From Nitrospirota bacterium (lineage in GTDB: Bacteria > Nitrospirota > Nitrospiria > Nitrospirales > Nitrospiraceae), in the NCBI GenBank assembly GCA_030645475.1, contig JAUSMA010000067.1, positions 1-64,000 on the forward strand: DNA of 64,000 bases, read 5' to 3'. Shown here piece by piece: positions 22,406 through 28,133 of this stretch (position 1 is its first letter; each line of letters opens with the position of its first letter). Made by a program: the position numbers and the translations under genes. The notes below the pieces were generated by a model. That model worked only from the letters and a program-made list of their open reading frames with translations. It did no database searches and was not told where the DNA came from.

Positions 22406-22435
22406 TTGACCGGATGATCGGCTTTCCACTATGAT
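22406..22435 (+). promoter_or_regulatory. Sigma-70-type promoter of the HlyD/TolC/ABC operon
   Basis: TTGACC (22406-22411) and TATGAT (22430-22435), each 5 of 6 to consensus, are separated by 18 bases. Predicted start of transcription is near 22443, 37 bases before the first gene, which has a GAGGAG ribosome site. Confidence 0.6.
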
Positions 22436-22479: not shown

Positions 22480-23916
22480 GTGGCACGCTTCACACAGGAT
22501 TTGCGAAGCAAAGTTCGCTCCCTTGTCAGACGGGACACCGGCCTGGATGAGATCGCTATCGACGAACTTGCGACCTCCAGAAAGCTTCAGTCCTGGGAAG
22601 CGGTCCAAATCCCCGAACGTCTTCGATTTTCTTCGCGCCTCGCCATCAAACTCGTACTCCTGTTTCTCTTGATCATCGCCTTCGTTCCTTGGACACAGAC
22701 GATTACCGTCAGCGGACAACTCTCCGCCTATACGCCCTCCGAACGTCCGCAGGATATCGAAGCGCAGATCACCGGACGGATCAAGAAGTGGCACATCTTT
22801 GAAGGGGTGCGCGTCAAGCAAGGCGATCTTATTCTTGAGTTAGATGACTACGACCCCAATTTCATGTCTCCGGACCTCCTATCTTTCCTAGACCAACGAC
22901 GCAAGGCGCTGGATCAAAGTCGCAAGGCGGCGCTCGCCCGCGCCGAGCAATTGGATAAACGGATCAAGGAGATGCAGAACCTCGTGAAGTCCGCGGTCCC
23001 GTCCGCCCAGGCACGCGTAATCGAATCTGAGAATAAGGTCCGGGAAGCCTACCAGAAAGTCGAAGCAGCAAAAATTGCGGTCGCGACAGCCGAGTTGAAC
23101 GTGGACCGGCACAAACAGTTAGCCGAGCAGGGCCTCGTGTCGCAACGCGAACTCGAGTTGACCATTCAGTCAGCGCTTGCCACCAAAGCCGATCTGACCG
23201 GAGCACAGGCCAACCTTAAGGGAGCAGAACAGGCCATGAAGGCTCTCGGCTTCGGCCGCGACCAGGTCAGCGCCGAAGTCCTGCAACGATTGCTCGACGC
23301 AGAAGCGGCCCGTGAGGCCTCTATCGGCGAAGCGGCAAAAGCCACCGATCAACTGGCCGATGTCTCACTGCGCATGTCCAACGCGGAACAACGCCGGCTC
23401 GCCGGCCACATCCTCTCCCCGATCGATGGCACCGTGGTGAAGATGGCTCAAGCCGGTGCCGGTGAAACCGTCCGCCCCGGGGAAAAACTCGTGAAAATTT
23501 CTCCAGCGAGTGCCGACAAGGCCATCGAGATGCTGGCTGACGGAATGGACGCCCCGCTGCTCAACGTAGGCCGGAAGGTGCGTGTCTTGTTTTATGGGAT
23601 TCCGGCTATTCCCCTCCCGGCTTGGCCGGAGATCATGGCCGGCACCTATGGTGGCGTCATCAAGGTCATCGACCAAGTCGACGACGGCAAGGGGAACTTT
23701 CGTTTCTGGGTGGTCCCGGATCCCGACGATCGAACCTGGCCGCCACAAGAACATGTCCGCCAGGGAACCAAAGCCATGGGATGGGTCATCTTGAACCGAG
23801 TCCCCCTGTGGTACGAGCTCTGGCGGCGCTTCAACCTCTTTCCCCCAGATTACCAAGAGCGCCCACCAAGCCTCATCGACACTCTCTTGCCAAAAGCAGG
23901 GCGAGGTGCGAAATAA
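22480..23916 (+). CDS. HlyD-family membrane fusion protein
   Basis: Periplasmic adaptor of a type I secretion-like system. A cytoplasmic N-tail of about 60 residues precedes one membrane helix (about 63-80), then a biotinyl-lipoyl half-motif (IEAQITGRIKKWHIFEGVRVKQGDLI), a long alpha-helical hairpin (about 140-290), the second lipoyl half (GHILSPIDGTVVKMAQAGAGETVRPGEKL) and a beta-barrel C-terminus. Start is GTG 22480 behind GAGGAG. It is the first gene of a four-gene plus-strand operon with TolC-like, ABC and four-helix membrane proteins. The N-terminal extension and the trailing proline-rich tail are unusual for HlyD. Confidence 0.88.
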   Translation: MARFTQDLRSKVRSLVRRDTGLDEIAIDELATSRKLQSWEAVQIPERLRFSSRLAIKLVLLFLLIIAFVPWTQTITVSGQLSAYTPSERPQDIEAQITGRIKKWHIFEGVRVKQGDLILELDDYDPNFMSPDLLSFLDQRRKALDQSRKAALARAEQLDKRIKEMQNLVKSAVPSAQARVIESENKVREAYQKVEAAKIAVATAELNVDRHKQLAEQGLVSQRELELTIQSALATKADLTGAQANLKGAEQAMKALGFGRDQVSAEVLQRLLDAEAAREASIGEAAKATDQLADVSLRMSNAEQRRLAGHILSPIDGTVVKMAQAGAGETVRPGEKLVKISPASADKAIEMLADGMDAPLLNVGRKVRVLFYGIPAIPLPAWPEIMAGTYGGVIKVIDQVDDGKGNFRFWVVPDPDDRTWPPQEHVRQGTKAMGWVILNRVPLWYELWRRFNLFPPDYQERPPSLIDTLLPKAGRGAK

Positions 23917-24037
23917 GCGCAGCGCAGTACGTGTTACCTCGTCTCAATATGCCCGCACCACAAACGACATCACCTTTCCGCGCCTGGTCTAACCCTCGCC
24001 GCGGTCGCTCGCCTATCTGACGAAAGGAGTCTGTCTC

Positions 24038-25522
24038 ATGAATTCCCGTCACGCTCTCCCAGTCCTGCTGCTCCTGGGTTCGATCGGGCTCTGCCCCTCC
24101 CTCTCCTCTGCGGAAGAGCCGATGAAATCAAAATCGCTCCCGCCAATTCCCTTGAGTGTGGAAGAGATTCACGCCTGGATCGATCGCTCGCACCCACTCC
24201 TCAGGGGGGCCGGTACAGAGAAAACCATGGCACGAGGGAAAATGCTCAAAGCATTAGGCGCTTTTGAGCCAACCCTCATCAACGATACTGAGATCGAACG
24301 ATTCATCAAGAGTTCAGACCCCGGCAAAGGCACCCAAACAGCGGGATTCAACGACACACTCGTCGAAGCGCGCCACCCCTGGGGATTTCGCTACAGCGCA
24401 GGGGTACGGCATGCCATCGGCGATGCAACCATTCCCGATCTTTCATTCGGCGGGGGTAACAATCAAGTCCTCCTCGGAGGCTTCTTCCCGCTGCTCCGAG
24501 GCCTCATGATGAATCCAGAAAATGCTGAACTCCAGCGATCCGAATTGGCCAATCCAAAGGCGGAAGTGCAGATCTCTCAAACAAGACAGGACCTGTTCCT
24601 GGCGGCAGCCACACAGTTTTGGGATTGGGTCACCGCGGTGAAGCTTGCAGAGGTGCAGCGCCGAGCCGTAGGAGTGGCCGAAGACCGGTATCGACAGGTT
24701 GAAGGCCGCGCCAAGGCAGGAGCTGTCGCGCCGCTCGACGTGGTCGAGGCCAATCAGGAGGTGCAGCGCCGCCGCGAGGTGGCCATCGCCGTGCAACGGC
24801 TGGTAGAGCAAGAACAGCTGAAACTGTCCATGTTCCTCTGGGAGAATAACGCGCCCGTCTCGCCGCATCTGGAGCGAGCCCCAGACTTCCCGTCGGCCAT
24901 GCTGGTGCCGGCGCCTGACATCATCCAAGCCCATAAACTCCAAGCCAAAGTCGATCGGCCGGAGGTCAAAGAAGTCGGCATCGAAGCCAAACTCAACAAT
25001 ATCGATCTAGAGCTGGCCAAAAATAACCTCCTTCCCAGCCTGGATGCTGAAGCAGCGCCATCTCGCACGCCGGAGAAGTTCGTGCTGGGGCTCGGCTACC
25101 GCTTTGGGCTGGAACTCAAGATTCCGATCCTCCAGCGAAAGAGCCGCGGCGAAGTCCTGGAAGCGCAAGGCAAGGCAGATCGATTTGTCTTCATGCAGCA
25201 ATTCCGCGAGCAACAAGTGCTCATCGATGTCGACAATGCCCTCTCCGCCCTCGAACGTGCCAAGGAACGCGTCGCGGCGGCAGCCGAATCGCTCCGACTG
25301 GCTAAAACCCTTGAAGAAGGGGAACGTTTCCGGTTTAGCCTTGGAGCAACTAGTATCCTCTTCGTCAACTTACGGGAACGGAATTCAGTCGATTCGGAGA
25401 GCCAGGTCATCCGAGCCAAGGCGGACTATCAAAAGGCGCGAGCCTTGTACCAATGGGCCATCGGAGCCTGGGCCAGAACGACGCCGTTCGTAACTCCCGT
25501 TACCTATCGGGCAAGAGATTGA
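24038..25522 (+). CDS. TolC-like outer membrane efflux protein
   Basis: 494 residues with a signal peptide (about 1-25, ending LSSAEE). Two repeats of long alpha-helical and strand segments are typical of outer membrane efflux proteins: QTRQDLFLAAATQFWDWVTAVKLAEVQRRAV in the first half and LERAKERVAAAAESLRLAKTLEEGERFRFSLG in the second. An AAAG-GAG-like site (cgAAAGGAGt) precedes ATG 24038. It would supply the outer-membrane channel for the HlyD-type adaptor encoded 121 bases upstream. Confidence 0.88.
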   Translation: MNSRHALPVLLLLGSIGLCPSLSSAEEPMKSKSLPPIPLSVEEIHAWIDRSHPLLRGAGTEKTMARGKMLKALGAFEPTLINDTEIERFIKSSDPGKGTQTAGFNDTLVEARHPWGFRYSAGVRHAIGDATIPDLSFGGGNNQVLLGGFFPLLRGLMMNPENAELQRSELANPKAEVQISQTRQDLFLAAATQFWDWVTAVKLAEVQRRAVGVAEDRYRQVEGRAKAGAVAPLDVVEANQEVQRRREVAIAVQRLVEQEQLKLSMFLWENNAPVSPHLERAPDFPSAMLVPAPDIIQAHKLQAKVDRPEVKEVGIEAKLNNIDLELAKNNLLPSLDAEAAPSRTPEKFVLGLGYRFGLELKIPILQRKSRGEVLEAQGKADRFVFMQQFREQQVLIDVDNALSALERAKERVAAAAESLRLAKTLEEGERFRFSLGATSILFVNLRERNSVDSESQVIRAKADYQKARALYQWAIGAWARTTPFVTPVTYRARD

Positions 25523-25660
25523 TTGAGAAGAAGTGGCTTTTCTTTCACTGCTTTGATAGCGTGAGAGCATAACGCGCCTGTTCCCATACATCGGCTCACC
25601 CTGCCCCTCTAACGCAGTGCAACGAGAGGCAGGACCTCGCCGAGGAAGAAGGCGGATTTC

Positions 25661-27325
25661 GTGCAAAGTCAGGTCGGTCTCCAACAGAATCTGTTTCAAT
25701 CGATGCTTGCATGCCTGGGCGTCCTCTTCCGCTTGGAGCGGAAGATCCTTGCCCTGATCGTCTCGTATTCACTCGCCATCGGACTCTTCTCCCTCATTGT
25801 CCCTCTCACAGTCCAAGAGCTCGTCAACACGTTTGCCTTCGCCATTCAGCCCATCACCATTGTAACTCTCGCAGGGGTGATGGTGGCCGGGCTCATGTTC
25901 GTCGGAGCATTCCGAGCTTTGCAGTTCTACTCCGTCGAGGTGCTGGAGCGCCGGATCTTCGCTCGGGTCGCCCTCGGGATGGCCCAGCAGTTGCCCCAGT
26001 TGCAATTTTTAGGGTTTAAACCCCGCTATGCCAATTACTTCATGGAGACCGTCTTTGTGCAACGGGCGCTCTCCGTCCTCCTCGTTGACCTGATCAACGT
26101 CATCGTGGGCGGGGCGGTCGGCATGACCATCCTGGTTTTTTATCATCCCTACTTCTTGTTGTACAACGCATTGCTCATGGCAGGGTTTACCGTCGTCTTT
26201 TTTCTCATGTCGCATGGAGGGCTGAAGGCCACTATCGCCATGTCCCATGCAAAATATGACACCCTGCATTGGCTGCAGGAGATCTCGTTTAATCTGCTGC
26301 ACTTCAAAGCCACGGATAGCCAAGCCATACTGATGCGGAGGACCGATGAGTTAGTCCAGTCCTACGTCGAAACCAGACAAACTCGATTCGGCATCCTGAT
26401 TCGTCAATACCTGGGATCGGTCGGCTGGCAAGCCGTCGCCCATAGCGGGCTCCTTGCCACTGCCGGATGGCTGTTGTCCATCGGTCAATTGACGCTCGGG
26501 CAACTGGTCGCCGCCGAGGTTGTTGTCAGCGGACTCCTCCTGAGTTTCGATGCCGTCGTCAAACGCATGGGACACATTTATTACTTCCTCACCGGTTTGA
26601 ACGAACTCGATTTTCTCTTCTCGCTTCCGAAAGACCAAGCCTCCGCCACCCTGTCCGTCCCGCTGCCGGATCCCACAATTCACGGTATTCGCGTGACCTG
26701 CAAAGACCTCGCGGTCATCCACCCAGGCCTGCCGACGATCTTCGAACAGTTCAATCTTGAAGTCACACCCGGAGAAAAAATCGGCGTCTACGCCAGTACG
26801 GCGGCAGCCAAAACGGCGCTCGCACGTGTCTTGGCAGGCCTGGAAACTCCGACTGGCGGCGTCCTTCGCTACAACGGCGTAGACCTTCGCCACCTCGATC
26901 TTCAGGCGATCAATCGCTGTCGAGGGTTCATGATCGACTCCCAGCTCACTCTGTTCGAGGGCACGATCGAAGATAACATCGTGTTGGGACGATCCTATGT
27001 TCCTTATAGCGATATCCGGTGGGCATTGCGCTTCACCGAACTGGAAGAAGACGTCGACGCATTCCCGCAGGGAATCAAGACCCACATCCGGGCCCCGGGA
27101 AAAATTCTTGCTCCAACGCATATCCTGCGGATCTTGCTCGCACGCGCAATCCTCGCCCGTCCGCAAATTCTGATCTTTGACGGTATCATCCACAATATGC
27201 AGCCGGCCATGCGCGAGACCGTCTTACGACGGCTCTGCTCAAAAGACGAACCCTGGTCGGTGATCTTTATATCGAACGATCCGAATCTCACGCCGCACGT
27301 CGATCGACGAATCATTCTCGATTAA
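25661..27325 (+). CDS. ABC exporter-like protein with a degenerate ATPase domain
   Basis: 554 residues: a membrane domain with five or six helices (about 30-310), then a nucleotide-binding fold (about 335-554). The fold keeps its outline but has lost the catalytic motifs. Walker A is VYASTAAAKT (both Gly replaced by Ala, Lys384 kept). The Q-loop Gln is not where expected. The LSGGQ signature is replaced by LAPTH (483-487). Walker B is ILIFDG, with Gly508 for the catalytic Glu. The switch His is Asn539 (ISND). Start is GTG 25661. It lies between TolC-like and four-helix genes. ATP hydrolysis seems unlikely; a structural or regulatory role, or a partner ATPase elsewhere, is inferred. Confidence 0.85.
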   Translation: MQSQVGLQQNLFQSMLACLGVLFRLERKILALIVSYSLAIGLFSLIVPLTVQELVNTFAFAIQPITIVTLAGVMVAGLMFVGAFRALQFYSVEVLERRIFARVALGMAQQLPQLQFLGFKPRYANYFMETVFVQRALSVLLVDLINVIVGGAVGMTILVFYHPYFLLYNALLMAGFTVVFFLMSHGGLKATIAMSHAKYDTLHWLQEISFNLLHFKATDSQAILMRRTDELVQSYVETRQTRFGILIRQYLGSVGWQAVAHSGLLATAGWLLSIGQLTLGQLVAAEVVVSGLLLSFDAVVKRMGHIYYFLTGLNELDFLFSLPKDQASATLSVPLPDPTIHGIRVTCKDLAVIHPGLPTIFEQFNLEVTPGEKIGVYASTAAAKTALARVLAGLETPTGGVLRYNGVDLRHLDLQAINRCRGFMIDSQLTLFEGTIEDNIVLGRSYVPYSDIRWALRFTELEEDVDAFPQGIKTHIRAPGKILAPTHILRILLARAILARPQILIFDGIIHNMQPAMRETVLRRLCSKDEPWSVIFISNDPNLTPHVDRRIILD

Positions 27326-27338
27326 GTTAGGGGAACAA

Positions 27339-28133
27339 GTGAGACTGACAACCTTTATTCGATCATTTCAGCCGAGCGCCTCACAACTATTGATCAGCCT
27401 CCTGGTTGCCGGCCTTGGGTGGCTCAGCGGACAAGCCTTAAGCAGCGTCGACCAGGATTTACGCATTATGTATACCGAATACACGCTCGGGGCCACCGAT
27501 CTTGCCCATATTTCCGCAGACATCATGCGGTACAGAAACACCATCATCCGTGCCCTCGAAGCGGACAGCCAGAAGGACTTCGAGCGAATCACCGAATCCT
27601 TGCCCGCACAGCGCGCGAGAATTCAGCATGCCGTGGACCGGTATGCAGCCGCGGGGCTGCGCGTCTCACGGAGCGGGCGCAGTGAGCCTGAAGATATCGA
27701 GGCGGTCCGGCGCAGTCTCGATCAATATTTTTCCGTAGCCAGCACAACCGTACAACTCTTGACGCAGGAATGGACCGCCGTCTCTCTAACGGAAAGGGAA
27801 ACCATCAGGCGAAAGGCGGAAGAACATGCCTCCGACAACGCAGGCCCGAAAATGATTCAGGTTAGCCTCGCGCTGGACCGGCTGTTGGACACGGTGGCGG
27901 ATGTGGCAAAAGACATGCGGGATGAAGGCACCAAGGCGATCCAGCGCACAAGCCTGCTGCTCGTAGGTGGAAGTTTTTTTATCGCCTTTTTGAATCTGTT
28001 CTTCACCAGACAGCGTGGAGGAACCTCCCAGCACAATGATGGTCCGGACGAACGCGAGATCGATTCTGGCCACCGCCCCATCCCACGCCCATTGGCCAGT
28101 GACACCCCAGCGGCGATACTACGCCAGGAATAG
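27339..28133 (+). CDS. Membrane protein with four-helix-bundle sensor-like domain
   Basis: 264 residues: an N-terminal membrane helix (about 15-33), a periplasmic all-alpha segment (about 35-200) resembling the four-helix bundle of chemoreceptors and kinases (IMYTEYTLGATDLAHISADIMRYR and similar), and a C-terminal helix (about 205-222) with a short polar tail. There is no HAMP, kinase or methyl-accepting output domain. GTG 27339 follows an AGGGGA site, 13 bases after the ABC gene. It probably assists or senses for the secretion-like complex; the assignment is weak. Confidence 0.75.
   Translation: MRLTTFIRSFQPSASQLLISLLVAGLGWLSGQALSSVDQDLRIMYTEYTLGATDLAHISADIMRYRNTIIRALEADSQKDFERITESLPAQRARIQHAVDRYAAAGLRVSRSGRSEPEDIEAVRRSLDQYFSVASTTVQLLTQEWTAVSLTERETIRRKAEEHASDNAGPKMIQVSLALDRLLDTVADVAKDMRDEGTKAIQRTSLLLVGGSFFIAFLNLFFTRQRGGTSQHNDGPDEREIDSGHRPIPRPLASDTPAAILRQE

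Follow-up and report, generated by a model that had tools for sequence, protein, structure and literature searches.

The window analysed here is a stretch of 64,000 nucleotides from a Nitrospirota bacterium (assembly GCA_030645475.1, contig JAUSMA010000067.1, positions 1 to 64,000), and at positions 22480-28133 it carries a four-gene, secretion-like operon built around an ATP-binding cassette (ABC) exporter protein whose ATP-hydrolysing site appears to be dead. We refer to this protein as pABC, for pseudo-ABC exporter. The host genome (3.75 Mb) belongs to the Nitrospira group.

The operon and the ATP site of its ABC protein

Four plus-strand open reading frames, all intact, are flanked by minus-strand purEK and rluB. 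They encode, in order, a HlyD-type periplasmic adaptor of 478 amino acids with a GTG start (22480..23916; Pfam HlyD_3, 7.7e-9), a TolC/OEP-type outer-membrane channel of 494 amino acids (24038..25522; Pfam OEP, 6e-33), pABC itself with 554 amino acids (25661..27325; Pfam ABC_tran, 6.1e-8), whose 33.8 bits lie narrowly above the cut-off of 25 bits, and a protein of 264 amino acids with two transmembrane (TM) helices and a periplasmic four-helix bundle (27339..28133; Pfam 4HB_MCP_1, 1.3e-7). The open reading frames and Pfam matches agree with the gene order, and with the intact reading frame of pABC, that an earlier note made from the sequence had described. A promoter scan placed a sigma-70-like box (TTGACC-18-TATGAT, 10/12 match) 5' of the operon on the plus strand at 22406..22435, and such boxes were not enriched in the region (3 found against 4.2 expected from shuffles), so the single promoter of the earlier note stays putative. 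The gaps among the first three genes measure 121 and 138 bp, with no terminator-like sites reported within them on the plus strand. HlyD is single copy in the genome, and the sole further genome match of the TolC-type channel is weak (23%).

The protein pABC consists of a six-helix membrane domain (residues ~1-335) followed by a degenerate nucleotide-binding domain (NBD; ~336-554). Its AlphaFold2 model (pLDDT 75.7) predicts a type I exporter fold with an NBD, and the best solved-structure match is HlyB of the HlyB/D complex (8dck_A; Z 28.2, 2.6 A, 536 residues). The model and the ABC_tran match together indicate an exporter membrane domain fused to an ABC-fold NBD, as in the ABC superfamily, and the earlier statement that fold and membrane domain are kept is upheld by the predicted structure.

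The former Walker A lies at residues 372-386 (EKIGVYASTAAAKTA; 26774..26818, plus strand), and in the stretch E372-KIGVYASTAAAKT-385 the alanines A378, A381, and A383 occupy all three glycine positions while K384 is retained. The earlier note was right that Walker A glycines had been lost, but it counted two where three are gone. The signature LSGGQ is replaced by LAPTH, the former Walker B ends in D507-G508 with glycine for the catalytic glutamate (27179..27184, plus strand), S538-N539-D540-P541 stands where the switch histidine belongs (27272..27283, plus strand), and the Q-loop glutamine is also displaced. The motif alignment thus reads as the note had it for the signature, for Gly508 and Asn539, and for the retained Lys384. 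The only surviving ATP-site residues are the Walker A Lys/Thr (K384-T385) and the Walker B aspartate, and what an ATP-hydrolysing protein would need, namely intact Walker A and LSGGQ motifs, the Walker B glutamate, and the switch histidine, is not present. The locus holds the HlyD, TolC-type channel, and ABC exporter genes of a type I secretion system, and the ATP-hydrolysing subunit of such a system is, as judged from sequence, apparently missing.

Conservation of the degenerate site within and beyond Nitrospirota

The pABC family occurs in 77 of 295 sampled genomes of the phylum. Orthologues are 77-97% identical, with gene order and synteny with purEK and rluB kept through the genus and beyond; named relatives include Nitrospira metagenome-assembled genomes and Candidatus Nitrospira defluvii. 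In the motif table, none of 118 distinct Nitrospirota proteins has the catalytic glutamate, the signature, the first Walker A glycine, or the switch histidine. Position 508 is glycine in every readable Nitrospirota sequence except two with serine, and family-specific constants (DG..H, K[DE]EPW, and S[NT]DP) stand in place of the catalytic motifs. Since basal clades (L053, L097, L099, and L102) retain GK[ST] and several other lineages have lost the Walker A lysine (AR in cluster 2, GH in L016), erosion of the ATP site went on after the catalytic residues were gone.

The ratio of nonsynonymous to synonymous substitution rates (dN/dS) of the window pABC is 0.04-0.10 against six orthologues and 0.04-0.15 over all pairs; for the NBD alone it reaches 0.19, and the transmembrane domain (TMD) and NBD are similar. 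With dN/dS well below 1 and the same losses in 118 Nitrospirota proteins and in other phyla, decay alone is no explanation, as the earlier note had argued from the intact frame. No intermediate with an intact motor was found in 245 phylum genomes searched with the membrane domain alone: all hits down to E 1e-8 were family members, and these scored 1e-70 or better. Broken copies, as fragments or with a frameshift, occur in some genomes (L018, L023, L162:5382-7481, and one tandem member in G174), so loss of pABC does happen.

Outside Nitrospirota, the distribution is drawn from a plasmid collection only, in which the best relatives belong to Persicobacter, Aureibacter, and Riemerella (Bacteroidota) and to sphingomonads, one homologue being on pNL2 of Novosphingobium aromaticivorans DSM 12444. 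The annotated relatives sit in ABC-HlyD-TolC operons in which no canonical ABC partner was seen, and their HlyD proteins match that of the window at 27-34% (E to 1e-78). All are degenerate, each differently: the former motifs read APGVER-S and MLSPLYD in Novosphingobium and EKYNATEKN and VVNRS in Aureibacter, and Riemerella keeps GKS and a glutamate in the Walker B stretch while the signature, Walker B aspartate, and switch histidine are gone. In a full-length tree and in a TMD-only tree, a branch with full support separates all the pABC groups from a small sample of canonical exporters (nine in the full alignment, five for the TMD); the order of the pABC groups among themselves is left unsettled by the trees. 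In the catalytic-motif columns, the likeness between phyla is no greater than that to canonical exporters, a pattern that parallel erosion from a common ancestor would fit. The comparison that the earlier note had proposed, of gene order and aligned ABC subunits in related genomes, thus found the altered residues conserved across species, genera, paralogues, and phyla, and the relatives with intact motifs and variable losses that would have spoken for random decay were not found. The conservation of the altered residues together with the lack of any intact relative points to a maintained pseudo-ATPase.

Natural loss of the NBD, the four-helix protein, and paralogues

Three genomes of one genus (g3, in family f3 of the same order) encode NBD-less homologues: G226, G325 (92% identity), and G214 (80%). 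The proteins have 337 or 346 amino acids and end cleanly after TM6, and hlyD and/or oep lie upstream (oep alone in G325, within the stretch taken). Sister genomes in family f3 have a full-length pABC of ~550-609 amino acids with a degenerate NBD. A search 3' of these truncated genes detected no NBD fragment (only scattered matches, the best at E 0.02), and no free-standing NBD of the three genomes lies closer to that of pABC than ordinary ABC proteins do. Because dN/dS within the trio is 0.21-0.27, indicating purifying selection, and because the same NuoL-like gene follows all three genes, whose end is shared, misassembly or decay does not explain them. The three cases probably represent a single loss event. 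K216 is lost in all three NBD-less proteins only and is kept in all other rows of the alignment of intracellular loops (ICL) 1+2. Relaxation of these coupling loops was considered as proof of NBD loss and set aside: 8/19 sister-invariant positions of ICL1+2 are changed (Fisher p 1.4e-4), and 6/19 are changed in each of the NBD-bearing outgroups.

Two residues of the membrane domain set the family apart. H162, at the periplasmic TM3-TM4 turn of the predicted topology, is present in 21/21 pABC proteins and E286, in the periplasmic half of TM6, in 20/21, and neither is constant in canonical exporters. We regard both as candidate docking or ion-coupling residues and as a lead only, E286 being no more than suggestive.

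The fourth gene product places a periplasmic four-helix bundle between its two TM helices (4HB_MCP_1, 31.8 bits against a cut-off of 27). The core of its AlphaFold2 model has pLDDT over 90 and matches the ligand-binding domain of Vc1313 (TMt 0.83, E 2.6e-3), and the 20 sequences compared are conserved, with a largely invariant helix 1. The four-helix protein was not found next to pABC in Nitrospirota clusters 1 and 2, in family f3, or among the Bacteroidota and sphingomonad relatives, nor next to the NBD-less versions, and it is therefore accessory. The earlier suggestion that it replaces the ATPase finds no support, as only part of the family carries it and it is absent beside the NBD-less versions. 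By its predicted resemblance to chemoreceptor ligand-binding domains, it may at most be an accessory sensor.

The window genome also has two further pABC genes outside the operon. In one paralogue lineage (L003:2935-7478; L163, L186, L188, L190, and L198), genomes of several genera have pABC followed by a histidine kinase and then by a sigma-54 response regulator, the kinase having two TM helices, a short periplasmic loop, and a PAS domain; it is possible that this pABC is an ABC-derived sensor for a two-component system. In the other (L002:7933-10494; L164, L191-L195, and L197), pABC is preceded by a conserved, secreted-looking protein of ~200 amino acids without a Pfam match, and in many cases genes for a Na/H exchanger, a universal stress protein, and a glycosyltransferase come after it. 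With such neighbours, pABC-type proteins may also have a part in signalling. In many Nitrospira genomes, two divergent pABC genes stand in tandem in the operon (L032-L052 and L093; e.g. L036:7902-11480), both degenerate, with the second 51-54% identical to the window protein; such a pair could possibly form a pseudo-heterodimer.

Possible mechanisms and relation to known systems

We consider it likely that the operon forms a HlyD-TolC conduit in which an ABC-exporter membrane domain serves as inner-membrane gate or transporter, with ATP hydrolysis lost long ago. Since all members examined lack the hydrolysis machinery and one lineage has dropped the NBD, the complex in Nitrospira and its relatives in at least two other phyla probably works without an ATPase of its own. 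In such a complex, a homodimer of the membrane domain would dock onto the HlyD ring and gate or transport without ATP hydrolysis, the pseudo-NBD, where present, would clamp the structure or offer a platform for regulation, and the four-helix protein would be an optional periplasmic sensor or regulator in Nitrospira. More tentatively, transport might be secondary-active and driven by an ion gradient, by analogy with an engineered NBD-less LmrA. Ion drive is favoured because NBD-less LmrA has been reported to be proton-coupled and because secondary transporters, such as that of EmrAB, can likewise work with a HlyD-like adaptor. The full account, that of a cross-phylum family whose NBD eroded in parallel in several phyla and was discarded in one genus while an ion-driven or gated membrane domain feeds HlyD-TolC, is tentative and somewhat less likely than not.

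Several points weigh against the proposed conduit without ATP hydrolysis. The operon is missing from several genomes of the same genus and is thus not essential, and the NBD is under purifying selection in most species, so it must still do something. The case for possible ion coupling comes from laboratory work with a different exporter; E286 was considered as the counterpart of LmrA E314 and rejected, as by numbering the position is different. An active ABC partner from another locus would also be compatible with the sequences, even for the NBD-less versions.

This last point leads to a heteromeric ATP-driven exporter, in which pABC would be the degenerate half and a canonical half-transporter encoded elsewhere the other, as in TM287/288, BmrCD, and TmrAB in more extreme form. 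Heterodimeric exporters are commonly degenerate on one side (PMC7756269), canonical half-transporters are encoded in the window genome, and tandem pABC pairs are frequent in Nitrospira, but the tandem partners and paralogues are degenerate too, a canonical partner was seen neither in those operons of the other phyla that carry annotation nor as a conserved Nitrospirota neighbour, and several lineages have lost the Walker A lysine and one its entire NBD, which makes such an exporter quite unlikely. Somewhat better placed, though still unlikely, is a complex that signals or serves as a scaffold instead of pumping, in which pABC would sense or anchor and relay a signal from the periplasm or membrane to partners such as the four-helix protein or, for its paralogue, a histidine kinase; BceAB-type sensing offers a comparison. 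The conserved kinase and response regulator order of one paralogue lineage and the chemoreceptor-like module encoded by the fourth gene would fit this idea, but the four-helix protein is not universal, and a conduit is favoured by the presence of HlyD and TolC beside the operon pABC in all lineages.

Nucleotide binding without hydrolysis could still gate the complex, as K384-T385 is retained in the window protein and most relatives, GK[ST] persists in basal clades, and the NBD is under purifying selection. Such binding is improbable given that the phosphate-wrapping glycines, Q-loop, signature, and switch histidine are gone, that the lysine has become arginine or histidine in some lineages, and that sphingomonads and the NBD-less genus have nothing of it left. 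That pABC is a decaying pseudogene, or an artefact of assembly or annotation, is scarcely credible: the broken copies of L018, L023, and one tandem member in G174 would suit it, but dN/dS is well below 1 in many orthologues, the losses recur across phyla, and the three NBD-less genomes concur on the gene end and on what kind of gene comes next.

Type I secretion systems (HlyB-HlyD-TolC and PrtDEF) share their three parts and the exporter fold with the operon, and HlyB is the best structural match of pABC. They differ in that the ABC ATPase here is dead or absent, with neither a C39-like domain nor a linked RTX-type substrate seen; no conserved gene for a secreted substrate, which in type I systems usually bears a C-terminal signal, was found in Nitrospirota neighbourhoods in a search confined to linked genes, and the NCBIfam type I models stay far under cut-off (TIGR03375, 111 against 693 bits; TIGR01843, 78 against 208.65). 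Heterodimeric exporters (TM287/288, TmrAB, BmrCD, and CydDC) likewise have degenerate motifs in an intact exporter fold, but they keep one active site and both NBDs, whereas pABC, its tandem partners, and its paralogues are all degenerate and one lineage is NBD-less. No linked partner subunit with a complete catalytic site was found in the Nitrospirota neighbourhoods of the operon or the paralogues.

In EmrAB-TolC, a HlyD-like adaptor and TolC are served by a non-ATPase inner-membrane transporter of the major facilitator superfamily. The adaptor and channel are thus shared, and the inner-membrane part is not an ABC membrane domain; the EmrA/EmrK model matches the window HlyD at 4.6e-13, far under cut-off. 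If ion-driven, the complex might function like EmrAB-TolC though built on an ABC membrane domain. The NBD-less LmrA-MD, for which ethidium-proton symport was reported (PMC6155054), is likewise an exporter membrane domain without NBD, but it is engineered, single-membrane, and Gram-positive, whereas the pABC system occurs in nature and has HlyD and TolC linked to it. The SecA_DEAD/HlyD/M50 loci of PVC (Planctomycetes-Verrucomicrobia-Chlamydiae) bacteria and Nitrospirae (PMC4452313) also combine HlyD and OEP genes in the absence of a working ABC transporter, but in them an ABC-derived protein is absent altogether and the gene set is another.

A literature search, in which subscription journals were thinly covered, found no published HlyD/TolC-linked ABC family in which all members are degenerate. 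The debate over useful ATP-independent work by ABC-exporter membrane domains has so far drawn on engineered LmrA and MsbA, and the pABC family provides natural cases, NBD-less ones included, that are open to cloning and testing. Where a protein beside HlyD/TolC bears the label "ABC transporter ATP-binding protein", as happens in some Bacteroidota, sphingomonads, and Nitrospira, ATP drive is not to be taken for granted. Nitrospira is a major group of nitrite oxidisers, and the family is widespread there.

PADLOC gave no match of the locus to defence families, and no relatives were found in viral contigs. In cluster-1 loci (L063-L103; e.g. L077), up to three tandem OEP/TolC genes lie upstream of pABC, and hlyD, purE, and purK lie downstream. 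At L053:10052-17257, pABC is followed by a secreted-looking protein of 2401 amino acids, the start of which recurs in L054 and which is not conserved elsewhere; it is possible that this protein is an exported substrate.

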